NCBI RefSeq assembly: GCF_022811925.1 | Contig: NZ_CP065511.1 | Location: 3,465,501-3,529,500, forward strand | Direction: 5' to 3' | DNA from: Cytobacillus oceanisediminis | GTDB taxonomy: Bacteria > Bacillota > Bacilli > Bacillales > Cytobacillaceae | DNA length: 64,000 nucleotides | In this document: piece after piece, positions 1 to 13,091 of the stretch | How the letters are laid out: each line of letters begins with the position of its first letter | How positions within the stretch are numbered: position 1 is the stretch's first letter | The notes under the pieces: model-generated | Databases searched by the model: none | What the model saw: the letters and a program-made list of their open reading frames with translations, nothing else | What the model was told of the DNA's origin: nothing | Made by a program: the position numbers and the translations under genes

Positions 1-935
1 TCCATGCCATTCCCGATCTGCAGACGATTTACCTTTTCTGCAAACAAGCGGGTAAATTCATCTGCGGCCTTTTGCTGAACATAAATCCGGTTTGTGCATA
101 CACACGTTTGTCCAGCATTCCTGAACTTGCTTGCAACCGCTGCTTCTGCGGCTTTCTCTAAATCAGCATCCTCAAATACGATAAAAGGGGCATGACCGCC
201 TAATTCCATTGAAACTTTTTTGACGGTATTTGACGCGTCCCTCATCAGTTTTTTCCCAACCGCCGTTGAACCTGTGAATGTCAGTTTCCGCACCTGCTTG
301 CTGTCTAATAAAGTTTGGGCAATCTCATTAGAAGGTCCAATAATCAAATTGGCTACTCCTTTTGGTAAACCAGCCTGATGAATGGCTTCAAAAATTTTCA
401 CGGCCGTTAAGGGAGTAGCTGAAGCTGGTTTTAGGATGACAGGACATCCGGCAGCTAACGCTGGTGCAATTTTGCGGGTAACCATGGCGGCTGGAAAGTT
501 CCAGGGTGTAATTGCGCCCGTCACTCCAACCGGCTCCTGCAGTACGAGTATGCGCTTATCTCGGCTGGAAGCTGGAATCGTCTCTCCATAAATACGCTTG
601 GCTTCCTCTGCATACCAATCCATATAGGAAATCGCCAGTTTTACTTCACCAATGGATTCTTTCAGGGGTTTGCCCATCTCTTTCGTAATGGTTACTGCCA
701 GATCTTCTTCTCTGTCTCTTAGACAATCTGCAATTTTTCTAAGATATTGCGATTTCTCAACTGCGCTTGTTTTCTTCCAGTCTTGAAAGGCAGCGGATGC
801 GGCCTGGATTGCTTCCTCGGCTTCTTCCTTTCCTCCATAAGCGACAGCACCGAATTTTTCTAAAGTAGCAGGATTATACACAGTAATCGATTCATTTTTA
901 TAGGAAGATTTCCATTCTCCATTAATATATAGCAT
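1..935 (-). CDS. gabD: NAD(P)-dependent aldehyde dehydrogenase, succinate-semialdehyde type (3' end off window)
   Basis: The N-terminal 311 residues of an aldehyde dehydrogenase are present; the C-terminus lies beyond the left edge. The general-base Glu (about E245, in ELGGH) and the catalytic Cys (C278, in AGQTCVC) are visible, as is the TPWNFP motif near residue 144. The ATG at 935 follows AAAAGGAG and lies inside the end of the upstream aminotransferase gene (14-nt overlap), so the two are probably translationally coupled. Pairing with a class III aminotransferase suggests oxidation of succinate semialdehyde to succinate, as in GABA breakdown. That substrate is inferred from family and context; another semialdehyde is possible. 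Confidence 0.88.
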   Translation of the reverse strand, partial: MLYINGEWKSSYKNESITVYNPATLEKFGAVAYGGKEEAEEAIQAASAAFQDWKKTSAVEKSQYLRKIADCLRDREEDLAVTITKEMGKPLKESIGEVKLAISYMDWYAEEAKRIYGETIPASSRDKRILVLQEPVGVTGAITPWNFPAAMVTRKIAPALAAGCPVILKPASATPLTAVKIFEAIHQAGLPKGVANLIIGPSNEIAQTLLDSKQVRKLTFTGSTAVGKKLMRDASNTVKKVSMELGGHAPFIVFEDADLEKAAEAAVASKFRNAGQTCVCTNRIYVQQKAADEFTRLFAEKVNRLQIGNGM

Positions 936-2229
936 GACCGTTCTCCTTTTTAGCGAGTTGCTGCAATCCTTCTTTCAGTACAGAAACTGCTTGATCAAGT
1001 TCCTCTTTTAATACCGTTACAGACGGGATAAACCGCAAAACATTCTTCTCAGTGCCGCAGGTTAAAAGAATGACTCCATGTTCTAAAGCAAAATTCTTCA
1101 GCCAATTTACAGTAGTGGCATCCGGGCGGCCTTTTTCATCCGTGAACTCTATGCCAATCATCAAGCCCAGACCTCTAACATCGCCAATTCCGGCAAACTC
1201 TGACTGTAAATCATATAATTGCTGTTTTAGATATCCCCCTAAAGTTTGGGCGTTATCTATTCCTTCCCGTTTTAAAATTTCTATGGAAGCCAAGGCTGCC
1301 GCACACGAAACAGGGTTTCCGCCGTAAGTGCCTCCATGTGTTCCCGGTTCCCATTTTTCCATAATTTCTTTCTTAGCAATGATGGCACTTAAAGGGAAGC
1401 CTGAAGCAATTCCCTTTCCTAAGGTAAGAATGTCCGGCTCTACTCCAAAGTGTTCATAGGCAAACATTTTCCCTGTTCTTCCGAATCCGGTCTGAACTTC
1501 ATCAAAAATAAGCAATATCCCATGCTGATCACAGATTTCTCTTATTTGTTTCAAAAATTCTTTCGGGGGTACAATATACCCTCCCTCTCCCTGTACAGGT
1601 TCAAGGATTATGGCAGCCACCTGGGATGGAGCAACTTGATACTGAAATACTTCATTGATACTTTGAATACACCTTTTCGTCTCTTCTTCATAACTTAGCC
1701 CGGTTCTAAAAGAATATGGATATTCACAAGCATATACGCTTGGAAGAAGTCCTTCATAATCCTGACGATAAGCTGAGCTTGAGAAAGTAATCGATGTCGC
1801 TGCGAGTGTGCGTCCATGGAATCCCCGTTTGAATGATAGGATGGCTGGACGCTTTGTCGCTTTTTTCGCTAATTTGATTGCTCCCTCATTCGCTTCTGCT
1901 CCGCTATTTGAAAAGTACACCATTTTCTGTGTTCCGGTTAATTCGTTCAGTTCCTCCGCTAATTGAATATAGGATGGATAGTAGGCCACATTATGGCCAA
2001 CATGAATCATCGCATCCAGCTGCTGCTTCACTGCTTCAATTACCTCGGGATGACAGTGTCCAACATTATTTACTCCTACACCACTGGCAAAATCGAGATA
2101 TTTCTTCCCGTTCTCGTCCTCTAGGGTTGAGCCATATGCTTTCGTTACACCTATCTTCGTTGCTCTGTTGGCAGCAGGGGGCAGAACAAGGTCGCCTCTT
2201 TCTGCTAGACTTTTATTCTTTTCAATCAT
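922..2229 (-). CDS. gabT: Class III PLP-dependent aminotransferase (4-aminobutyrate transaminase-like)
   Basis: 435 aa, full length for the ornithine/GABA aminotransferase family. The cofactor lysine is K272 in LTLGKGIASG, the pyridine-N-binding Asp is D243 in IFDEVQTGFGRTG, and the phosphate-binding SNSGAEANE lies at 107-115. It would transfer an omega-amino group from GABA or a similar amino acid to 2-oxoglutarate, giving a semialdehyde for the next gene. Its start overlaps the gamma-carbonic-anhydrase stop by 4 nt (ATGA), and its own end overlaps gabD. Sequence alone does not separate GABA from other omega-amino acids. Confidence 0.85.
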   Translation of the reverse strand: MIEKNKSLAERGDLVLPPAANRATKIGVTKAYGSTLEDENGKKYLDFASGVGVNNVGHCHPEVIEAVKQQLDAMIHVGHNVAYYPSYIQLAEELNELTGTQKMVYFSNSGAEANEGAIKLAKKATKRPAILSFKRGFHGRTLAATSITFSSSAYRQDYEGLLPSVYACEYPYSFRTGLSYEEETKRCIQSINEVFQYQVAPSQVAAIILEPVQGEGGYIVPPKEFLKQIREICDQHGILLIFDEVQTGFGRTGKMFAYEHFGVEPDILTLGKGIASGFPLSAIIAKKEIMEKWEPGTHGGTYGGNPVSCAAALASIEILKREGIDNAQTLGGYLKQQLYDLQSEFAGIGDVRGLGLMIGIEFTDEKGRPDATTVNWLKNFALEHGVILLTCGTEKNVLRFIPSVTVLKEELDQAVSVLKEGLQQLAKKENGHAIY

Positions 2230-2753
2230 AATGACTCCTCACTCTCTTCACGATAATCGCGTTTCCATAGCTCGATGTATTCTTCTGCATTTTTTTCCAG
2301 GTCATGTATTTCATTTTCTGTTAATTCACGCACGATTTTGGCAGGAACTCCAACAGCTAAGCTGCCTATAGGAATTACTTTCCCTGGAGGAACTAACGCA
2401 CCCGCTCCAACTTGTGCTCCCTTTTCAATGACAGCACCATCTAAAATAATAGAACCAATGCCAATCAAAGCTCCATCTTCAATAGTACAGGCATGTAGAA
2501 TGGCACCATGACCTACTGTAACCATTTTCCCTATCCTTAAAGGAGCATCAGGTGTCACATGGCAGATGCAGCCGTCCTGGATATTGCTTCCTTCACCTAT
2601 TTCGATAAAATTATCATCGTCTGCTCTTAAGACTGATTGAGGCCAGACACTGACATTTTTGGCTATTCTGACGTCGCCAATCACTTGTGCCGAGCCATGA
2701 ATCATGGTTTCGGCATGAATGGATGGAACCCGCCCTTTTAATTGTTCTATCAT
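2226..2753 (-). CDS. Gamma-carbonic anhydrase-like left-handed beta-helix protein
   Basis: 175 aa of hexapeptide repeats typical of the YrdA/PaaY/CaiE family. The three metal-ligand histidines of gamma-class carbonic anhydrases are visible (H65, H82, H87), with R43/D45 and Q59 at the expected active-site positions. The family members PaaY and CaiE occur in CoA-ester catabolic operons, where thioesterase or accessory roles have been proposed, and this gene lies between a CoA transferase and an aminotransferase. It starts after a good AAGGAGAAGG site. The true activity (CO2 hydration or CoA-thioester related) cannot be told from sequence. Confidence 0.85.
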   Translation of the reverse strand: MIEQLKGRVPSIHAETMIHGSAQVIGDVRIAKNVSVWPQSVLRADDDNFIEIGEGSNIQDGCICHVTPDAPLRIGKMVTVGHGAILHACTIEDGALIGIGSIILDGAVIEKGAQVGAGALVPPGKVIPIGSLAVGVPAKIVRELTENEIHDLEKNAEEYIELWKRDYREESEESL

Positions 2754-2800: not shown

Positions 2801-3946
2801 TTATTGAGCTGCGAGTCCTAATTCTTTTAAGATCTCTTCCTTATGCTCTCCCAGCACAGGAGCAGCTTTCGCAATCTTTCCAGGTGTCTTTGATAGTTTT
2901 ACAGGAATGCCTAATGCTTTTATTTTCCCGGCAACAGGGTGCACAACCTCTTCTATCATTCTTCTGGATAGTGTGTGCTGGTCAGTTAAAGATTCGGGAT
3001 AGGTATTTATTGGGCCAGCAGGAATTCCCGCTTTCTCAAATTTTTCCAGCCAGTAATGTCTCGGATTCAGACTCGTCTTCTCTTCAATTAATCGGACAAA
3101 TTCATTTAAGTGCTGAATTCGAGAGGCATCATCAACAAATCGGTCATCAGATAAGAATTCAGGTCTGCCGATGATCTGGCAAAATACTGGCCAATGATGT
3201 GGTGTATCTGCACCAACAGTAAAATAACCATCACTGGCACGAAATGCCTGATATGGAGCAGACAAGCGGTGTCCGCTTCCGGTAGGTGCAGGTGTTTCTC
3301 CCGTAAACCAATATTGGGTGCTTTCCCAAACCGATAATGCGAGTCCCGTATCATATAAAGAAGCGTCAATATACTGCCCCTCATTGGAATGAACCCTGGA
3401 ATACAATGCGGATAAGATACCATAGACAGAAAACAGGCCAGAACCCAGATCGATAATCGGAAGGCCGCATTTAACAGGGTTGCCATTCCTTTCACCTGTC
3501 ACACTCATAATACCGGTCATTCCCTGTGCGATTAAGTCATAACCGCCACGGGAAGAATAAGGGCCATACTGGCCAAACCCAGAAATAGAGCAGTAGATCA
3601 GTTTTGGGTTAATCTGATTAAGTGTTTCATAGTCTACGCCTAGACGCTTAACTACCCCAGGGCGGAAATTTTCTATCAAAATATCCGCGGTTTCAATTAA
3701 CTTATAAAACACTTTCTGATCTTCGCCATCTTTTAAATCAAGCGTTATGCTGCGCTTGTTCCGATTGATCGCCATAAACGCACCGCTTTCCCCTTCCTTA
3801 TAAGGGGACCATCTTCTGGTGCTTTCACCTTTTGGCGGTTCAACCTTTATGACATCAGCTCCCATATCGGCCAGCAGCATTCCGCAATAAGGCCCTGCCA
3901 TGACCTGGCTTAAGTCAATTACTCTAATGCCTTCCAATGCACTCAT
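2801..3946 (-). CDS. CaiB/BaiF (class III) CoA transferase
   Basis: 381 aa, normal length for family III CoA transferases. It starts with the typical LEGIRVIDLSQVMAGPYC segment and carries ENFRPG at 92-97. The expected catalytic Asp is D166 in IIDLGSG, which forms the acyl-anhydride intermediate. It would move CoA between an acyl-CoA donor and a carboxylic acid. ATG follows AGAAGGAGATGG. Together with the crotonase downstream it implies that the imported acid is processed as its CoA ester. The substrate is unknown. Confidence 0.9.
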   Translation of the reverse strand: MSALEGIRVIDLSQVMAGPYCGMLLADMGADVIKVEPPKGESTRRWSPYKEGESGAFMAINRNKRSITLDLKDGEDQKVFYKLIETADILIENFRPGVVKRLGVDYETLNQINPKLIYCSISGFGQYGPYSSRGGYDLIAQGMTGIMSVTGERNGNPVKCGLPIIDLGSGLFSVYGILSALYSRVHSNEGQYIDASLYDTGLALSVWESTQYWFTGETPAPTGSGHRLSAPYQAFRASDGYFTVGADTPHHWPVFCQIIGRPEFLSDDRFVDDASRIQHLNEFVRLIEEKTSLNPRHYWLEKFEKAGIPAGPINTYPESLTDQHTLSRRMIEEVVHPVAGKIKALGIPVKLSKTPGKIAKAAPVLGEHKEEILKELGLAAQ

Positions 3947-3983: not shown

Positions 3984-4979
3984 TCAAAGTCTATTTAAGG
4001 CTTTATCTTCAAATAAATAGAGTTCCTGATTATCCAGAATGAGTTTGCCGTCGATTTCGACCCGCGGATCCTTTACGACCATATCGTAATGCCCTTTGGC
4101 CTTCACAGTTCCCCCGATATATGCATTCGTACCTAAAGCAATGTGGATCGTTCCATAAACCCCTTCATCACTTAGCATGCTGTTTTCCAATTCACATTCT
4201 GGATTCATGCCAATGCCAAACTCACCGGCAAAATAGATATTCCCTTCGTCATCATTCTTTTCCATTAGTATTTTCCTGAATTGCTCCGCTTCTCTGCCTC
4301 CTGTAATCGAAACCGCCTTTCCTTCCTTAAATACCACTTCAACTGGAGTCTCCATTAGACCCACCCCTGGAATACTCCCATCTACCACTAAAATTCCTTC
4401 AGCGGTTCCTTCAACCGGAGCAATGCTGGATTCGATGCAGTGAGCTGCCGAAACATCCGTACTGTTTGCAAACCCTGTTAGGGCTCTGCCTGGCCTGCCT
4501 TTGATGGAAAATCTTAAATCTGTGCCAAGGGCTGTCGTGATATGGACAAATTCACCAGCTGTCAATATGTCTGCCAGTTTCTCAACTTGAGGTCTTAGTG
4601 CAGCAAAGTCAGCACGCAGCACCTTGCTTAATAAAATGTCTTCATGTGCTTCAGGCAAGATTAATACTCGGGCTCCTGCCTTTTGTGCATCATGGCGGGC
4701 TTTTGTATGGGCAATGTTATAGGTTGTCGGTGCGATGATCACATCGGCTTCCTTCATAGCCGCTGCGACTGCATCCGGCAATGCATCTCCATGCCCTGTC
4801 CTCGGCGGCATTGAGATCGTGATGGGTTCAGCGTCGAGTGAACAGACCACAGATGCCAGAACTTTTGTGATTCCATCCGTTAAAAAATCTGTCAGGATGA
4901 CAACTTTTTCTCCGCTCTTAACACCTGCCAGAACTTTTACGAGTGCTGTAGCGGCCGGGTACATTAGTGCTTCTTTCAT
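3984..4979 (-). CDS. M29 aminopeptidase-T / NicX-superfamily metalloenzyme, paralog 1
   Basis: 331 aa, shorter than M29 aminopeptidases (about 400) and near the length of NicX, the 2,5-dihydroxypyridine dioxygenase of the same superfamily. Candidate metal ligands of the fold are retained: E253 (GEFGIGMNP), H279 (GTIHI), H297 and D299 (GHYD). A very similar paralog opens the operon at 10.1-11.1 kb. Database pipelines usually call such proteins 'aminopeptidase', but two copies in a small-acid catabolic operon with a carboxylate importer fit ring opening or amide cleavage of a small molecule better. The reaction is not determined. ATG follows AGGGAG. Confidence 0.7.
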   Translation of the reverse strand: MKEALMYPAATALVKVLAGVKSGEKVVILTDFLTDGITKVLASVVCSLDAEPITISMPPRTGHGDALPDAVAAAMKEADVIIAPTTYNIAHTKARHDAQKAGARVLILPEAHEDILLSKVLRADFAALRPQVEKLADILTAGEFVHITTALGTDLRFSIKGRPGRALTGFANSTDVSAAHCIESSIAPVEGTAEGILVVDGSIPGVGLMETPVEVVFKEGKAVSITGGREAEQFRKILMEKNDDEGNIYFAGEFGIGMNPECELENSMLSDEGVYGTIHIALGTNAYIGGTVKAKGHYDMVVKDPRVEIDGKLILDNQELYLFEDKALNRL

Positions 4980-5025: not shown

Positions 5026-5799
5026 CTATATCCCTTTAAATACTGGCGGCTTTTTGTTAAAGAACGATTCAATCGCATGCTTGTGATCCCATGTATCCTG
5101 GCATTCAATAAACGCATCCAGTTCCTGTTCCATTGCTTCCTGCCACTCAAAATCCATGGTTTTCTGAATCGTGTTCTTCGCATGTCTTACTGCGATTGGA
5201 GCACGGGAAGCAATCAGCTGTGCCCATTCATGCGCTTCTGTTAATAAATTGTCAGGGGATACAACCCTGCTCGCTAACCCTCTTTGCAATGCTTCTTCAG
5301 CTGTTATCGTTCTGCCTGTCAATATCACTTCCTTGGCATATGCTTCACCCAATAGCCTGACTAACCGGGTTGGTCCGACAACCAGTCCAACCTTTACCCC
5401 TGCCGCACAAAGCTTTGCACGTTCCGACATGATGCGAATATCACAGGCTAAGGCAAGCTCGAACCCTCCGCCAAATGCATAGCCATTAACTGCAGCAATC
5501 ACAGGCTGGGGCATTTCGTTGACAATATCGTATATTCTGCAATCTTCCTCTAAGAAATGCCGGACAGATTCAGGAGTCAGCTCACCTTCCTCGTTTAAAT
5601 CGGCTCCTGCACAAAATGCCCGATCCCCTTCTCCAGTAAGGACAATAACCCGGACATCCGAGGAGGTTTTAAGCTCCTCCATATAGGGAACAAACTCTTG
5701 CCGAAACTCTTTCGTCAAAATATTCATTGGCGGGTTTTTAATGGTAATGGTGCAAATAAAATCGGATATTTCAGCATGAATTTTTTCCAACCTTTTCAT
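5026..5799 (-). CDS. Enoyl-CoA hydratase/isomerase (crotonase) family protein
   Basis: 257 aa crotonase fold with the oxyanion-hole FCAGADL (about 63-69) and GGGFELALACD (111-121). The first catalytic Glu of enoyl-CoA hydratases is present (E115 counting from the upstream GTG). The second, normally in a PEI-type motif about 20 residues later, is replaced: the segment reads AAGVKVGL. The enzyme may therefore be an isomerase, hydrolase or lyase rather than a plain hydratase. The ATG at 5799 is preferred over the GTG at 5802, which lies in the ribosome site AAGGGTG. The permease gene ends 8 nt upstream. Confidence 0.85.
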   Translation of the reverse strand: MKRLEKIHAEISDFICTITIKNPPMNILTKEFRQEFVPYMEELKTSSDVRVIVLTGEGDRAFCAGADLNEEGELTPESVRHFLEEDCRIYDIVNEMPQPVIAAVNGYAFGGGFELALACDIRIMSERAKLCAAGVKVGLVVGPTRLVRLLGEAYAKEVILTGRTITAEEALQRGLASRVVSPDNLLTEAHEWAQLIASRAPIAVRHAKNTIQKTMDFEWQEAMEQELDAFIECQDTWDHKHAIESFFNKKPPVFKGI

Positions 5800-5806
5800 C
5801 ACCCTT

Positions 5807-6931
5807 CTAAGATTCCTGTTCGAGCTCAGCAGAGATTTTTATTTTTTTCCTGGGTATATCCTCCAGACGTCCATCTATGCCTTTGCTTCTTTGATACTTA
5901 TCCCATAAAATAACGGCTATTGGGCATAATATCGAGGTAGTAATAGTAGAAATGGAAATTTGTATTGTGGCTAAATTGGCAATTTCCTGAAAACTTTGAG
6001 CCTTTTCCACCGTCATCAGACCTGCACCCGCTGCCACTGATGCTGCCGCTGCGATTGCAGCAGGTGTTCCCACTGCGTTCCCTGCCGTTGATGCTTCTGC
6101 AACAGGGCCAATCGTACTTTTTTCTCCAAATAACCTATAGACCAGGATTCCGGTTAATGCGGTAAAAATGACTGTGGCAAACCCGAGAGCCAAACCTCCC
6201 CAAACAGCTTCAGGATTAAAGAAACTCATGAAATTCATTCCTGCTCCAAGACAGAAAGCAAAGAATGGTACAAGCAGCGTTTCACCAGGCTTTAAAAACT
6301 CCCGAATGTCTTCATCCAGATTTCCCAACAGCATTCCTAAAGCAATTGGAAGCAGGACAGCTATGAATGCGATTAAAGGAAAATTAACGCCAACCATCCC
6401 CAAAGCCAGCATGGTGAAAAAAGGACCGTCATTCAGAGTTAATACGGAAATGGCTCCAACATCTGACCGATTCCCGTATTGCCCTGTCAAAACGGCATAC
6501 ATTCCTTCATTTCCATTGGTCATGGCAGCAATAATAGCCAGGGTAGATAATCCAAGCAGACCGTTCATTGGGTCAAAAAATACCCCAAATAAAATACCGA
6601 TCGCAATCCCGGTTAAACACTTGCTTCCTGTTAATAGAATTCCTTTCTTTAAGGCCTTTCCGCCTACTCGCAAATTCATCTGGCTGCCTGCACAAAATAA
6701 GAACAAGCCAATGAGTGTTAACGTTCCTGTTTTAAAGAGTGCTTCCGAGAATCCTCCGATTTTCATAAACTCATAAATTCCTTCTTCAACCGGCGATACC
6801 CCTATGCTTTTAAGGAAATTCATTATAAATGGAATGTGAAGCTGATCAATCGTATTAAATAAAGCGCCAAGCATCAGCGGAATGACCATCAGACCTCCGG
6901 GCACTTTTTCAATTGTTTGCTTTATCCTCAT
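5807..6931 (-). CDS. 2-keto-3-deoxygluconate permease (KdgT)-family transporter
   Basis: 374 aa with about ten hydrophobic segments. The N-terminus (KQTIEKVPGGLMVIPLMLGA) is diagnostic of the KdgT family, proton symporters for 2-keto-3-deoxygluconate and related acids. The conserved NGNEGMY and STAGNAVGTPAA segments are present. It sits between TctB and the crotonase, so the operon encodes two independent uptake systems. No sugar-acid catabolic genes are nearby, so the substrate is probably a different small carboxylate; this is inference from context. Confidence 0.85.
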   Translation of the reverse strand: MRIKQTIEKVPGGLMVIPLMLGALFNTIDQLHIPFIMNFLKSIGVSPVEEGIYEFMKIGGFSEALFKTGTLTLIGLFLFCAGSQMNLRVGGKALKKGILLTGSKCLTGIAIGILFGVFFDPMNGLLGLSTLAIIAAMTNGNEGMYAVLTGQYGNRSDVGAISVLTLNDGPFFTMLALGMVGVNFPLIAFIAVLLPIALGMLLGNLDEDIREFLKPGETLLVPFFAFCLGAGMNFMSFFNPEAVWGGLALGFATVIFTALTGILVYRLFGEKSTIGPVAEASTAGNAVGTPAAIAAAASVAAGAGLMTVEKAQSFQEIANLATIQISISTITTSILCPIAVILWDKYQRSKGIDGRLEDIPRKKIKISAELEQES

Positions 6932-7050: not shown

Positions 7051-7497
7051 TCAAGGTAATCGAATATACATAAGTTTTTCAAACACCACATAAATGAATC
7101 CAATCATCCCTATAGATACTAATGTGGCCGTATACCAGCGAACTTCCTTATAATACAGCATGCCGATGAGTAAAAAGATTAAAGTAGAATACAGAAAACC
7201 TATAAAAGGTATTAACAGAAAGACATAAACAACTGTCAATAGCAGATATAGTATCCCTCTTTTAACTTCCTGAATAGAGGCAGAACCTGTTTCCTCTTCC
7301 TCCTCTTTTTTCTTTCTGACCGCTTGGACAAACTGCCAGATTGATAGACCTATCAAACTATAGCCGAGCAGCATGGGAAATGAACGAGATGAATTTAAAA
7401 AATGTTCTCCTGGCGGGAATTTATAGCTGCCTATTACAAAAAAGAGGCCAATCGCGAAAACAATGCCCGCCAAAAGATAATCTTTATTTATCCGCAT
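7051..7497 (-). CDS. tctB: Tripartite tricarboxylate transporter small membrane subunit TctB
   Basis: 148 aa with four predicted membrane helices and a charged loop (RKKKEEEEE) in the middle, typical of TctB. TctB pairs with the large TctA channel and the periplasmic/lipid-anchored TctC to import carboxylates with Na+ or H+. Gene order here is tctA-tctC-tctB, with the binding protein gene 15 nt upstream. TctB is usually poorly conserved, so the call rests on size, topology and neighbours. Confidence 0.85.
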   Translation of the reverse strand: MRINKDYLLAGIVFAIGLFFVIGSYKFPPGEHFLNSSRSFPMLLGYSLIGLSIWQFVQAVRKKKEEEEETGSASIQEVKRGILYLLLTVVYVFLLIPFIGFLYSTLIFLLIGMLYYKEVRWYTATLVSIGMIGFIYVVFEKLMYIRLP

Positions 7498-7512: not shown

Positions 7513-8553
7513 TCACTCTTTTGGCCGGCTAATTCCTACTTCTTCCGGTGACCGTTTTCCCACACCAATATCCCAAAGCAGCCAGCTTGTTTTTTCCGTG
7601 ATTTCTTTTGTATATTCCTGACTATCATCAATATCTGTGAGGACAATTGCCCTTTTCTTTGCAAATTCCTTAAATTCATCACTGCTGATCGCCTTGTTAT
7701 ATGCCTCTCTAATTTTAGTAATGATTTCTTCAGGTGTTCCGCGCTTCACAGCTGGCCCCCACCAGGTTCCTTCCGGTACATATTTTTGCAAATCAGAGAC
7801 AAAATCAGTGACGGGCGGGATTGATTCAAGGTCATCCACTTCAAACGGTTTATTATCCATAACAGCCAGTGAACGTAAATCCCCTGCCCGAAGCAGATCC
7901 ACTACCTCGTTAACCCCGCTGATTGAAAAATCCACCTCACCTTTCATGGCAGCCATGGCAGCATTTGAACCAGAATCATACGTAATAATTTCGGCATCTC
8001 CACCCACGACACTATTCACTATCTCCAGAGTGAGGTGCCAGGGGTCCCCAATCGCAGCTACACCAACCTTCGCATTTCCATCTTTTAATAGCTGAACCAC
8101 ATCATCAAAGGTTTTCAGGTCAGATTTGTCTTTAACTGTAAAATTAGCAATCCCCATTGCGCCAATTCCAATTTGCTCGAAATCCTTGTATGTTAAATCA
8201 GTCATGCCCATTGTTGGAAATACACGGACCAGATCTGTTTGAAATAGGATGGTGTGTCCGTCAGACTCTTGTTCGTTAACATATTCAAGGGCCAATGCAC
8301 TGGAGGCTCCAGGCATATTTCTCACCGCAATGGATTCCCCTAATTCCTCCTGAAGGATTGGCTGCAGGGTCCGGGCCATTGTGTCAGTCCCGCCTCCCTC
8401 ACCAAAACCAACAATGATTTCTATTGGCTCTGAAGGGTATGCACCTTCTGCTTCCTTGTTGCCAGAAGCCTTTTGATTTGATTGATTACCAGAACAGGCA
8501 CCTAATATCAGAACCCCTGAAAATAGAGTCAGAAACATCATTTTTAGTTTCAT
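7513..8553 (-). CDS. tctC: Tripartite tricarboxylate transporter substrate-binding lipoprotein TctC
   Basis: 346 aa. A lipoprotein signal ends in LILGAC with the lipid-modified Cys at about residue 20, followed by a low-complexity linker and the TctC/Bug fold (YPSEPIEIIVGFGEGGGTDTMAR onward). Bug proteins bind carboxylates such as citrate, nicotinate or aromatic acids; the ligand cannot be read here. The start overlaps the tctA stop by 4 nt (8550-8553), indicating coupled translation. Confidence 0.92.
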   Translation of the reverse strand: MKLKMMFLTLFSGVLILGACSGNQSNQKASGNKEAEGAYPSEPIEIIVGFGEGGGTDTMARTLQPILQEELGESIAVRNMPGASSALALEYVNEQESDGHTILFQTDLVRVFPTMGMTDLTYKDFEQIGIGAMGIANFTVKDKSDLKTFDDVVQLLKDGNAKVGVAAIGDPWHLTLEIVNSVVGGDAEIITYDSGSNAAMAAMKGEVDFSISGVNEVVDLLRAGDLRSLAVMDNKPFEVDDLESIPPVTDFVSDLQKYVPEGTWWGPAVKRGTPEEIITKIREAYNKAISSDEFKEFAKKRAIVLTDIDDSQEYTKEITEKTSWLLWDIGVGKRSPEEVGISRPKE

Positions 8554-10067
8554 AAGTTTGCCCCCTTAGGCTTTATTTTCCCCCACAAATGTTTTAAGCG
8601 TTTTGTCAGGAATGAATTTTGATTTAACAGCAGAAATACAATACAGACCAGCAAGAAAAGACTAATTGGGCGTGTGAAGAATGGCCCGAACGAATAATCC
8701 GCACTCACCATGGCTCTTCGGAAATTCTGTTCCGCCATTAAACCAAGGATCAATCCTAACACTAATGGAGGGGCAGCCAGCCCGACTTTACGCATAAGAA
8801 AACCGATGATGCCAAAAAGAAACATAATTCCAATATCAAATGGCCTGTTGTTAACTGCAAATGTCCCTACCACACTAAATACCGTAACAATCAGCAAAAC
8901 TATACTTCTGGGAACTGATAGAATTTTCTGAAACAAATAAGAAAAAAATAATCCAAACACAAGCATAAACGCAGCAGATATCGTTAAAATGATAAAAAAC
9001 TGATTTAATATATCCGGATTTTGTGTCAGTAAAAGCGGACCCGGCTGCAATCCGTGAAGCAAAAGCCCTCCTATAATAACTGCCGTGACTGCATCACCAG
9101 GGATACCAAGTATTAACATCGGTATATATGTACCTGGCACACAAGCGTTATTCGCCGTTTCTGCAGCAACGATTCCTTCTGGATTTCCCTTGCCAAAAGT
9201 CTCAGGCTTCTTGCTTCTCCGGCGGGCCACATCGTAGGAAACCCAGGCAGCTACATCAGCCCCAACCCCCGGTATCGCTCCTATCGCTGCTCCTATTACT
9301 GAAGATCTTCCGCCGGCGGGCAAAAACTTTACTAACATCTTCCACGGGGGGAAAATAGATTGGAATTTCTCCGCTTTTAAAGGCTTCTTCAGCTGCATAA
9401 TAGAGTCGATTACCTCAGCTATTCCGAATACTCCGATTAAGACTGCAATTAGACTAAAACCATCCATGAGTGCACTTTCTCCAAAAGTAAAACGCTGGGC
9501 GCCTGTGATCTTATCCATTCCTACAGTGGCTAAAGCTAATCCTAATATCCCGGAAATAAGCCCTTTCGACAGTGATGCAGCCGTTAGGTTTGCACTGAGA
9601 ATAATTCCAAACATGGCTAGTAGAAAATACTCCCATGATCCGAAATTCATACTTAAATCCAGCAGGAGCGGCGCCCCTATCAGAAATAAAACAGCAGCCA
9701 GAATAGTACCTAAAAAGGATTGGAAGGTTGCCAGTCCTCTTGCCAGTCCTCCCTCCCCTCGCTGAGCCATTGGATAACCATCCATAGCAGTCGCAGCTGA
9801 GGCAGGCGTACCTGGGATATTTAAGAAGATGGCTGGCGTGGACCCGCCATAGGTTCCTCCTATATGAACCGAAACAATTAGAACCATTGCTTCTATCCAT
9901 TCCATCCCCCAGGTAAATGAAATCAGCAAGGATACTCCCATGGTAGTAGTGAGACCCGGAAGTGCGCCTACTGCCATTCCGGCAACTGTGCCAAAAAGAA
10001 ACAAAAGCATGATTTTAACTGTAAAGAAACTGGCCAGCGATTCGCCAATTAGACTTATTTCTCCCAA
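8550..10067 (-). CDS. tctA: Tripartite tricarboxylate transporter large membrane subunit TctA
   Basis: 505 aa, about twelve membrane helices, with the TctA signature segments GALPGLTTTMGVSL near the start and GAAIGAIPGVGADVAAWVSY in the second half; both carry the glycine-rich G-x-x-P-G motifs of the family. The start is TTG at 10067, 5 nt after a strong GGAGGAGG. It follows the first M29/NicX-like gene by 15 nt, so uptake and the first enzyme are co-expressed. Confidence 0.93.
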   Translation of the reverse strand: MGEISLIGESLASFFTVKIMLLFLFGTVAGMAVGALPGLTTTMGVSLLISFTWGMEWIEAMVLIVSVHIGGTYGGSTPAIFLNIPGTPASAATAMDGYPMAQRGEGGLARGLATFQSFLGTILAAVLFLIGAPLLLDLSMNFGSWEYFLLAMFGIILSANLTAASLSKGLISGILGLALATVGMDKITGAQRFTFGESALMDGFSLIAVLIGVFGIAEVIDSIMQLKKPLKAEKFQSIFPPWKMLVKFLPAGGRSSVIGAAIGAIPGVGADVAAWVSYDVARRRSKKPETFGKGNPEGIVAAETANNACVPGTYIPMLILGIPGDAVTAVIIGGLLLHGLQPGPLLLTQNPDILNQFFIILTISAAFMLVFGLFFSYLFQKILSVPRSIVLLIVTVFSVVGTFAVNNRPFDIGIMFLFGIIGFLMRKVGLAAPPLVLGLILGLMAEQNFRRAMVSADYSFGPFFTRPISLFLLVCIVFLLLNQNSFLTKRLKHLWGKIKPKGANL

Positions 10068-10082
10068 ATAAACCTCCTCCCC

Positions 10083-11063
10083 CTACTCTATATAGAGTTC
10101 TCCGTCTTTCATAAGGATTTTCCCATCCACTTTGATAGTCGGTTTTCGAATCACTAAATCACAATGCCCCGGGGCTCTGATACTGCTTCCAAATGTGATT
10201 CCATTGCCAATTCCAATATGCATCGTTCCGAACTCTGCCTCGTCTTCCAGCTGGCCTCCTCTTCCAATTTTCGCCTTTGGGTTCATGCCAATTCCCATTT
10301 CCACTGCGCAATATACATTGGGATGATTGTAACTTTCCAGCGTTTGCTTAAGCATTTCAGCATCTTCTTTTCCTTCAATGGAAATGATTCTTCCTTCTCT
10401 AAAGACGACTTTAACTGGATCTTCACAAGCCCTTCCCGGCACAATGGCCCCATCAATGTACATGATGCCTTCTGTAGTTCCTTCTATTGGTGCCACTGCT
10501 GTTTCAATGCAAGGAGGGGGTGAAATACTTCCAGGTTCATGACAAATTCCAGTTTGAGGTACGGCATGACGACCTGATATGGACATGGTCAGCTCTGTAC
10601 CTAAATGGGTTGTGATGCTCAATCGTTCTCCTTCTTCTAGAATGGCGGATACTTTATCGATTATTTTCTTTTGTGCAAAATAATCGATATCCAGCGAACC
10701 ATCTAAGAAAACCTCTTCATTTGCATCGGGCATAAATATTAATCTTGCACCTGCATTACTTGCTTCTTTTCTGGCAGTTGAATGATTAATAGAAAAAGTC
10801 GTCGGAGCAACGATCGCATCAGCTGCTTTCATTGCTTCTGCAATGATTCTTGGCGGTTCATCGCCATGCCTTGTGGTGGGATTCATGATTGTCATAACAA
10901 CCTCTGCTCCCATCCCTTCACCAGCAAGTGCGAAAACCTCTCCAATTTCTGTCGTATTTGTATCCGTTAGAATCAATAGGTTTTCTCCAGGCTTTACATT
11001 TAGACATGTCTTCAATAAAGTCTGCACGGACTTCATCATAAACATTTTATTTATGATTTTCAT
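10083..11063 (-). CDS. M29 aminopeptidase-T / NicX-superfamily metalloenzyme, paralog 2 (operon first gene)
   Basis: 326 aa paralog of the protein at 3984-4979. Matching candidate metal ligands are E255 (VEMGIGMNP), H282 (GTMHI), H300 and D302 (GHCD). As first gene after the sigma-54 promoter it probably acts on the incoming substrate. The ATG at 11063 follows GAGGGGGAG with good spacing. The ring-opening dioxygenase NicX and metallopeptidase M29 share this fold; the sequence does not settle which chemistry applies. Two diverged copies in one operon suggest two successive or alternative substrates, or a hetero-oligomer. Confidence 0.72.
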   Translation of the reverse strand: MKIINKMFMMKSVQTLLKTCLNVKPGENLLILTDTNTTEIGEVFALAGEGMGAEVVMTIMNPTTRHGDEPPRIIAEAMKAADAIVAPTTFSINHSTARKEASNAGARLIFMPDANEEVFLDGSLDIDYFAQKKIIDKVSAILEEGERLSITTHLGTELTMSISGRHAVPQTGICHEPGSISPPPCIETAVAPIEGTTEGIMYIDGAIVPGRACEDPVKVVFREGRIISIEGKEDAEMLKQTLESYNHPNVYCAVEMGIGMNPKAKIGRGGQLEDEAEFGTMHIGIGNGITFGSSIRAPGHCDLVIRKPTIKVDGKILMKDGELYIE

Positions 11064-11101
11064 TGCACTCCCCCTCGTATTTTTACTACAACTAGTTAGA
11101 C

Positions 11102-11117
11102 TGCAAGTACCGTGCCA
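11102..11117 (-). promoter_or_regulatory. Sigma-54 (-24/-12) promoter of the catabolic operon
   Basis: The minus strand reads TGGCAC, five bases (GGTAC), then TTGCA. This matches the consensus TGGCAC-N5-TTGCA with invariant GG and GC exactly 12 bp apart. The predicted start is near 11091, 28 nt before the ATG of the first operon gene. The gene just upstream encodes an AAA+ activator with a GAFTGA loop, as sigma-54 promoters require. Confidence 0.93.
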
Positions 11118-11215
11118 AGTTATGAATTTTCTATATTTTTCATTAACCCCCCCTGTATATAAGGGATATACAGGACAACTTCTATATTATTGAAAACATC
11201 ATCATGATCCATTGT

Positions 11216-11325
11216 TCGCAAATTGCAAAAAAAACATAGAAGATCTGTCCAGATTATAAAGAAAAGACAAATCTACTATGTTTTTAACGTAATCGCAATT
11301 TGCGAACTATAATTGCATTTTGCGA
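11216..11325. promoter_or_regulatory. Three 13-bp enhancer-like sites for the sigma-54 activator
   Basis: Three related 13-mers lie upstream of the -24/-12 promoter: 11216-11228 TCGCAAATTGCAA, 11293-11305 TCGCAATTTGCGA (a perfect palindrome about one base), and 11313-11325, which on the minus strand reads TCGCAAAATGCAA. The consensus is TCGCAAWWTGCRA. Their centres lie roughly 130, 208 and 228 bp upstream of the predicted start, a usual range for upstream activating sequences. The third site overlaps the last codons of the activator gene. Binding by that activator is inferred. Confidence 0.8.
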
Positions 11326-13091
11326 TTAAGCTCGTATTTATTAATTTTCCTGTATAGGGTTGCTACATTTATACCAAGTTCATCTGCTGCTTGTTTTTTT
11401 CCATTCAATGTATCACTATATCTCTTTAATACATCCATTATCATTCTTTCTTCCATTTCTGCTAGAGTAATATTTTCTTTATCACCATTCAGGTGATTTT
11501 GTACACGGATTCTTGGAGGCAGGTTTTCTACTTTAATCCAGTGATCAGTTGCCATATTTATGGCATATTCCACAGCATTTTGAAGTTCACGTATATTACC
11601 GGGCCAGTTGTACGAACATAGCATATTCTCCGCATCAGGAGTGAAACCTCTCACTTTTTTTTCAGTAATTTTGTCATAGTGCTGTACAAAATGCTGTAGA
11701 AGGACGAGAATATCACCATCTCTTTCCCTCAATGGAGGAATATGAAGCGGAATGACACTTAGCCTAAAAAATAAATCCTGCCGAAATTCCCCATCAGCTA
11801 CCATTTTTTCTAAGTTTTTATGGGTTGCTGCAACGACCCTAATATCGATATCTATTGAGTTATTAGAACCAATTCGTTCGATTTTTCTTTCCTCTAACAC
11901 TCTTAACAGCTTCACTTGTAAATGCAATGGCATATCACCTATTTCGTCCAGAAAAATGGTGCCTCCTTGTGCCATTTCAAATTTTCCAGGCTTACCGTTT
12001 TTCCTTGCACCCGTAAACGCACCCTCGCTATAGCCAAACAATTCACTTTCCAGTAAATGTTCAGGAATAGCTGCACAATTAATGGCCCGAAATGGTTTAT
12101 TTACTCTTTTGCTTTCTTGATGAAGCGCTCTGGCAAAAAGCTCCTTCCCTGTTCCGCTCTCCCCCAAAAAGATGACTGTAGAATCTGTTGCCGCAACTTT
12201 TTTGGCTGCAGCCTTTGTCTGCAATATAGCAGGGCTTTTTCCCACAATAATATCGAATGTAGAATCATCTACCTCTGATGTTATAGAATAGGCAAACTTT
12301 TGAACTTCAGCTAAATCTTTGAGCGTAATCGCACATCCAATAATTTGGCTGTTATGGATCAAAGGGTTAGCACTGATAATGACTTGAATCATTTTTCCAT
12401 TCACAACAAGAGAACATTCTTTATCGGAGTATCCTTGTCCAGTTGAAAATACCTTTGTAATCGGGAGATTTTGAATAACTTCTGAAATATTCAAAGATAA
12501 TACATTGTGTTTTTTTATATTTAGTATTTTTTCTGCAGAACGATTCATCTCTAAAATGTACCCTTTCTGATCAACAGCAATGATTCCCTCGTACATGGAT
12601 TGGATCGTCACTTGCAGCATTTGTGAGGTTGATAAATATTTCTTTAAAAGTGATGTTCCATTTATTTTGCTGCTGATTAAATCTGCCATTTTCCCGAGAT
12701 AATTTGATAAAATACGATGCTTCTCTTTAAATTCATTTTTTTGTTTTTCAGAGAATGCCGTTAAACTGATAACCCCGACAATTTCGCCCTCATGTGTTAA
12801 TGGATATGAAACATCTGATTTTTCAGGGCAATTTTGATGAAGGATACAGCTTTTACATACGTCATGAAAACCTGGCTCTAAATTGTAAACAGGCTGATTT
12901 GTTTTTAAGACTTCTGCGATGATATGCCCTCGAACTGGCTCACCCACAACTGCATGCGTGCCCCCACCTGTGGCCGTAACAACAACTTTATTTTTATCAT
13001 AGATAATCACTTCTAAAGACAAAACAGATTTAATGGCTTCTGCTACTAAGTTCACTTCTTCTTGAATTTCAAAAAGGATTGATTTACCCAT
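11307..13091 (-). CDS. Sigma-54-dependent enhancer-binding transcriptional activator (PAS, AAA+, Fis-type HTH)
   Basis: 594 aa. Residues 1-145 form a sensor region with a Cys cluster (C79, C82, C88) that could bind metal or Fe-S; 155-260 is PAS-like. The AAA+ core (about 280-515) has Walker A GESGTGKE at 310-317, the sigma-54-contacting GAFTGA at 357-362 and Walker B LDEIGD at 381-386. A Fis-type helix-turn-helix ends the protein. No receiver domain is present, so a small ligand or redox signal is more likely than phosphorylation. The gene sits directly upstream of, and in line with, the sigma-54 operon, making it the probable specific activator. ATG follows GAGGAGGATG. Confidence 0.93.
   Translation of the reverse strand: MGKSILFEIQEEVNLVAEAIKSVLSLEVIIYDKNKVVVTATGGGTHAVVGEPVRGHIIAEVLKTNQPVYNLEPGFHDVCKSCILHQNCPEKSDVSYPLTHEGEIVGVISLTAFSEKQKNEFKEKHRILSNYLGKMADLISSKINGTSLLKKYLSTSQMLQVTIQSMYEGIIAVDQKGYILEMNRSAEKILNIKKHNVLSLNISEVIQNLPITKVFSTGQGYSDKECSLVVNGKMIQVIISANPLIHNSQIIGCAITLKDLAEVQKFAYSITSEVDDSTFDIIVGKSPAILQTKAAAKKVAATDSTVIFLGESGTGKELFARALHQESKRVNKPFRAINCAAIPEHLLESELFGYSEGAFTGARKNGKPGKFEMAQGGTIFLDEIGDMPLHLQVKLLRVLEERKIERIGSNNSIDIDIRVVAATHKNLEKMVADGEFRQDLFFRLSVIPLHIPPLRERDGDILVLLQHFVQHYDKITEKKVRGFTPDAENMLCSYNWPGNIRELQNAVEYAINMATDHWIKVENLPPRIRVQNHLNGDKENITLAEMEERMIMDVLKRYSDTLNGKKQAADELGINVATLYRKINKYELNRKMQL

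Follow-up and report, generated by a model that had tools for sequence, protein, structure and literature searches.

A probable one-operon sigma-54 switch in Cytobacillus oceanisediminis and the recurrent pair-plus-single spacing of its candidate enhancer sites

Genes and control elements of the locus

The window, i.e., the whole stretch of 64,000 nucleotides of the Cytobacillus oceanisediminis genome analysed here (contig NZ_CP065511.1, positions 3,465,501 to 3,529,500), holds an activator gene at 11307..13091 on the minus strand. Its product consists of an N-terminal domain with a weak resemblance to GAF and SpoVT_C (the GAF_2 and SpoVT_C matches sit slightly under the Pfam cut-offs), a PAS domain, an AAA+ Sigma54_activat domain (PF00158, E 8.5e-72) with GAFTGA present in the translation, and a Fis-type HTH (PF02954, E 2.6e-8). 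The best-scoring family model for the activator was PrdR (NCBIfam NF041552), with the PAS-AAA+-HTH region in common. An assignment as PrdR was rejected, as the model reached 440 bits against a cut-off of 795 and matched from residue 154 onward only. The nearest named records by activator include Cytobacillus firmus and other bacilli (best 80 of 92 loci). In the N-terminal part, the consensus NPxxHxxCxxCxxxxxCxE was observed at residues 70-90 (window 12822-12884) and in the relatives at loci L082-L101, and this may be a metal or redox site. The last cysteine of the consensus is absent in several relatives, e.g., L087, L093, L098, and L187.

The genome encodes sigma-54, with one match to the sigma-54 DNA-binding domain (PF04552, E 2.6e-63), and contains 22 matches to PF00158, of which 17 are strong. 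A strict intergenic -24/-12 element was found in the fetched stretch at 13 of the 16 other strong activator loci, indicating that activator loci of this organism normally have a sigma-54 promoter next to them.

Ten genes on the same strand, running down to position 922, form a putative catabolic operon next to the activator gene. The first gene encodes an M29/NicX-like protein (10083..11063, Pfam PF02073), followed, as assigned by domain search, by TctA of a tripartite tricarboxylate transporter (8550..10067), the solute-binding protein TctC (7513..8553), TctB (7051..7497), a KdgT-type permease (5807..6931), a member of the enoyl-CoA hydratase/isomerase family (5026..5802), a second M29/NicX-like protein (3984..4979), a family III CoA-transferase (2801..3946), a hexapeptide, gamma-carbonic-anhydrase-like protein (2226..2753; 178 bits, below the NCBIfam cut-off of 250), and a class III aminotransferase (922..2229). 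An aldehyde dehydrogenase gene (1..936, minus strand, domain search) runs off the window edge, and genes for FAD-oxidase and cysteine-rich Fe-S (CCG) proteins follow on the same strand beyond the window. We infer that the operon probably extends into these genes. The sole solved relative found for both M29-like proteins is 2,5-dihydroxypyridine 5,6-dioxygenase, and a literature search on the gene set of the operon found no paper.

An earlier note on this DNA had proposed a -24/-12 promoter of the form TGGCAC-N5-TTGCA, and an exact match, TGGCACGGTACTTGCA, is indeed present at 11117-11102 on the minus strand, with a predicted start near 11091. This is the sole exact promoter match in a pattern scan of the window; with one mismatch, 2 matches were obtained vs 1.19 expected, and only the exact form carries weight. 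The N5 spacing of the -24/-12 element is that of a sigma-54 promoter. The three matching 13-mers of the same proposal were recovered as well, as exact copies of TCGCAAWWTGCRA at 11216-11228 (plus strand), 11293-11305 (both strands, and therefore the perfect palindrome that had been described among them), and 11313-11325 (minus strand). Listed on the minus strand, they are candidate enhancer site 3 (TTGCAATTTGCGA, 11216..11228, promoter-proximal), site 2 (TCGCAAATTGCGA, 11293..11305), and site 1 (TCGCAAAATGCAA, 11313..11325). If transcription starts near 11091, their centres lie at approximately -131, -208, and -228, in agreement with the 130-230 bp given previously, and the distances between centres are 20 bp from site 1 to site 2 and 77 bp from site 2 to site 3. 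All three had been placed between the promoter and the 3' end of the activator gene. This is correct for sites 2 and 3, whereas site 1 is located inside the activator ORF, in the last codons, as part of the tail NRKMQL.

On the minus strand, the order is thus the end of the activator gene at 11307, site 2 just past the stop codon, a terminator, site 3, the promoter, and the first gene from 11063. The intrinsic terminator of the activator gene (approximately 11285-11230, minus strand) takes up the stretch from site 2 to site 3, and the earlier note made no mention of its hairpin. The hairpin reaches -21.8 kcal/mol (z -7.2), a value that 0 of 200 shuffles equalled, and a test of hairpin plus T-run gave -18.3, better than 10 of 10 shuffles. 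Its position fits the need to halt activator transcription ahead of the operon.

Occurrence and conservation of the motif

Within the 5.58-Mb genome (two contigs), the exact 13-mer occurs at 5 places. A scan of the window with 2 mismatches showed no enrichment (12 found vs 15.87 expected) and is uninformative, so the evidence for the sites is the exact cluster, i.e., 3 of the 5 genome copies within 110 bp at this locus. The symmetrised motif TYGCAWWWTGCRA was found at 7 places genome-wide, 3 of them at this locus, with 0 for the reversed control. For the promoter, TGGCAYN5TTGCW gave 44 matches genome-wide vs 2 for the reversed control pattern, and the strict -24/-12 pattern is therefore mostly signal. 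None of the four other copies of the symmetrised motif, two of which are exact, has a -24/-12 element nearby; three lie within predicted ORFs and one is intergenic. The motif had been expected to serve as a finder of a whole regulon, an expectation that did not hold, since the genome scan gave only this operon as a combination of motif and promoter. As no other copy is near a -24/-12 element, a regulon of just this operon is predicted. Among 397 genomes of the order, a long exact two-site pattern proved too strict for use, with matches in only 3.

Conservation of the 13-mers upstream of orthologous operons had been named beforehand as a test of the proposal. Eight orthologous loci (L078-L085) with 63-97% identity over nearly the whole activator were taken from the best 80 of 92 loci, and three sites, including the counterparts of sites 2 and 3, together with a -24/-12 element were found in 8 of 8. 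One base change in the first site of L084 was picked up by the palindrome search. The same-genus close copies L178, L180, and L185 (identical ones set aside) also keep the sites and the promoter, apart from a single-base change in site 2 of L185. When the window was aligned with six of the eight loci, 35 of 55 positions in the sites and the promoter were invariant vs 17 of 196 elsewhere; for the promoter, this amounts to 9 of 16 positions in the 7 aligned regions. The first operon gene is M29-like in L078-L081 and L083, KdgT in L082, and a CoA transferase in L084 and L085, indicating that conservation of the regulatory block does not depend on the genes under its control. The activator stop codon comes before site 1 in L082 and L085 and the site is still present, and it can be concluded that the DNA site is conserved and not the protein tail. 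In a same-genus relative (G053:C1:2066254-2068034), the activator is split in two overlapping reading-frame pieces, with the downstream sites and promoter present. A downstream -24/-12 element was found in 5 of the more distant relatives (16 loci, L086-L101), and all 5 carry TATCA-type palindromes instead, so that the 13-mer motif does not extend beyond the close ortholog group.

Pair-plus-single spacing in other activator loci

The layout of a pair of sites followed by a single one (2+1) was searched for from 60 bases before the activator stop codon to the first downstream -24/-12 element. Three palindromes sharing one half-site (5 + gap 1-6 + 5, at most one mismatch) were sought, with a first distance of 16-22, a second distance of 50-120, and the pair first; these limits were fixed after a first look. 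A first palindrome score, which counted three sites at any spacing, was weak, as shuffles often reached 3 (window p 0.03). It is therefore the spacing, and not the three-site count alone, that makes the 2+1 evidence decisive. The discovery set comprised relatives of the window activator plus the activators of the same genome and is not independent of the chosen limits; here, the layout was present in 23 of 61 regions vs 0.14 expected (200 dinucleotide shuffles each), and none of the other first-distance windows between 9 and 85 gave a match. The mirror order, with the single site first, gave 0 in the discovery set and in all hold-out sets.

For the first hold-out, HTH_8 proteins of 12 other genomes of the phylum were used, which are presumed sigma-54 activators. 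With a downstream promoter present, 2 of 35 regions matched vs 0.07 expected (100 shuffles each), and without one, 0 of 58 matched vs 0.07 expected. Such few matches mean that the layout is no rule for all activators. The second hold-out covered relatives of the window activator in other genera, with 89 of 112 places looked at, and 11 of 31 regions with a downstream promoter matched vs 0.19 expected. Its first batch contributed 2 of 7 (0.04 expected; one match repeats L091) and its second batch 9 of 24 (0.15 expected), the latter from 60 relatives, 36 of them without a downstream promoter, so that 15 of the 24 with a promoter fail the 2+1 limits. Other first-distance windows gave 0 in the first hold-out, and 1 (first batch) and 5 (second batch) in the second. 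Pooled over all sets, 36 of 127 regions match, with first distances piled at 18-20 and 25 HTH-similarity clusters. Two or three doubtful matches stay counted, among them L347, which has an AT-rich half-site and a third site 10 bp from the promoter, and L331, whose third site is 258 bp away from it. The 2+1 layout is well above chance, common in the wider subfamily of the activator, and rare in the general sample.

Further arrays were observed alongside. In the same genome, L159 (G000:C1:4713400-4721900) and L162 (G000:C1:2437700-2446200) show the 2+1 layout with the half-sites CCAGA and TCCGA. L084 (Alteribacillus iranensis) has a second, minus-strand sigma-54 activator with its own 2+1 array and an ATGCA half-site, and L134 and L149, from records titled Deltaproteobacteria MAGs and hence outside Bacillota, carry 2+1 arrays of GTACC-N6-GGTAC palindromes. 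A helical phasing of the distance between sites 2 and 3 is not claimed: over 25 clusters, p was 0.004 (best period) and 0.007 (10.5 bp), both post hoc, and the hold-outs alone were not significant (0.12, 0.29). A search of titles and abstracts found no adjacent-pair enhancer layouts, and the 2+1 spacing was not found described in the literature searched, which consisted largely of papers outside subscription.

Terminators were tested in 17 of the 23 discovery matches, with L078-L081, L180, and L185 left out as close copies of the window. A hairpin with T-run beating all 10 shuffles was found in 12 of these 17 arrays and none such in 5. In the window, L082, L083, L084 (plus strand), and L091, the stem is a separate one, placed between sites 2 and 3, and in L085 it is found past site 3. 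Sites 1 and 2 make up the terminator stem in L159 and L162, and site 3 does so in L095, L187, and L188. In the portions of the literature searched for terminators overlapping enhancers, including those of PMC12316311, none were seen.

The sequence of the half-sites was compared with the recognition helix, where the scoring covered only TabCA half-sites and the 63 regions in which the helix conforms to a set pattern. When the first helix residue is N, the half-site is TCGCA/TTGCA in 11 of 11 (one ortholog group). For G, it is TATCA in 13 of 16 labelled regions (1 tie, 1 TCTCA, 1 TCCCA; 1 unlabelled), and for S, TCTCA in 10 of 15 labelled regions (3 TATCA, 1 TTTCA, 1 TGTCA; 20 unlabelled). The contrast of G/S by TATCA/TCTCA gave p values of 0.001, 0.05, 0.1, and 0.46 when clustered at 90, 70, 60, and 50% identity, respectively. 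A one-residue helix code for the half-site may be considered as a lead only.

Proposed switch, rival readings and known systems

The bEBP domains of the activator, the sigma-54 gene in the genome, and the sites kept in orthologs speak for the view of the earlier note that activator, binding motif, and target share one locus, as far as can be judged from sequence. Being palindromic, 100-250 bp upstream, and conserved in orthologs, the sites are good UAS candidates. The locus is very probably a pathway-specific sigma-54 switch comprising the activator, three sites, looping, a hexamer, and the catabolic operon. This reading builds on the sequence features, their conservation, sigma-54 in the genome, and the unique combination of motif and promoter, and from these we infer binding, looping, hexamer, inducer, and operon extent. 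The activator gene would be transcribed toward the operon and halted at its own terminator at 11285-11230. Activator dimers may then occupy the three palindromes, with sites 1 and 2 paired at the 3' end of the activator gene and site 3 single, and three dimers at three sites would seed a hexameric AAA+ ring. The DNA that separates the sites from the promoter would loop, and the ring would remodel sigma-54 RNA polymerase at 11117-11102 and turn on the catabolic operon of about ten genes, from the M29-like protein through the aminotransferase. An inducer presumably acts at the N-terminal or PAS domain.

The 13-mers could also be the sites of another regulator, with the window activator acting elsewhere, and the four further symmetrised motif copies in the genome would suit such a regulator. 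However, these copies have no -24/-12 element nearby (three are in predicted ORFs, one is intergenic), the motif co-occurs with the activator in 8 of 8 orthologous loci, and TATCA and TCTCA palindromes occupy the same place where the HTH differs, which makes this explanation improbable. That the repeats are RNA or terminator hairpin elements and not protein sites is suggested by the strong hairpin between sites 2 and 3 and by the palindromes that themselves form the terminator stem in L095, L159, L162, L187, and L188. In the window, however, none of the three 13-mers is part of the stem, 5 of 17 arrays have no hairpin beating all 10 shuffles, and termination has no need of three copies that share a half-site and stand at fixed spacing upstream of a -24/-12 element; we consider this very improbable. 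That site 1 is conserved only as coding sequence for the C-terminal tail of the activator (in the window, part of NRKMQL) is hardly credible, since the ORFs of L082 and L085 end ahead of site 1 and the site is retained.

If the locus is read as a sigma-54 switch, it would be a clear one-operon switch for an uncharacterised catabolic pathway. Since the 2+1 spacing recurs in relatives with changed site sequence, it looks like a conserved assembly geometry. We tentatively propose, at somewhat less than even chances, that the layout (pair mostly 18-20 bp apart, third site 56-82 bp on, one case 114) is a shared hexamer assembly geometry kept as sites change, and that the first helix residue largely sets the half-site (N: T[CT]GCA; G: TATCA; S: mostly TCTCA). 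If true, the sites of many uncharacterised activators could be read from the DNA ending their own genes. That one spacing occurs with different motifs points to a way in which three activator dimers might sit on DNA to build the ring, and it could offer a way to infer the binding motifs, perhaps a recognition rule, of Fis-type sigma-54 activators from sequence alone.

Among known systems, NorR uses a GAF iron centre to sense NO, and it acts from the region between the divergent norR and norVW genes. In contrast, the window activator gene points toward its operon, with two sites at its 3' end. Both share a bEBP with GAFTGA and three sites upstream of a sigma-54 promoter. Activation at norVW of E. 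coli requires the three NorR sites, which serve as the scaffold of a higher-order oligomer (PMC2941729, in part). AdhR of Clostridium beijerinckii, likewise a Gram-positive sigma-54 activator, has three UAS sites, comparable to the three candidate sites of the window, and disruption of any one severely impairs the promoters (PMC7017808, in part). The AdhR-type motif TGT-N10-12-ACA (PMC6615313, in part) differs from TCGCAA-N-TTGCGA in the window. CelR is added to the three-site cases in a discussion passage (PMC8899819, in part). The window with its three candidate sites would fit the NorR/AdhR scaffold scheme. GabR of Bacillus thuringiensis is also a PAS-type sigma-54 activator of an aminotransferase gene, but its layout differs, with one protected stretch that contains a 21-bp inverted repeat near the promoter (PMC4279683, in part).

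For Clostridiales, Nie 2019 described 39 EBP groups, in which EBP, UAS, and sigma-54 promoter are usually side by side, 65% control one operon, multiple UAS occur in 32 groups, and most UAS are 100-250 bp upstream (PMC6615313, in part). The ortholog group of the window is from bacilli and thus outside that study. A fixed 2+1 spacing was not found in the portions of PMC6615313 covered, and an overlap with its UAS tables and logos is possible. Compared with these systems, the switch is ordinary in kind, and what merits specialist attention is that the 2+1 spacing recurs while the motifs change.
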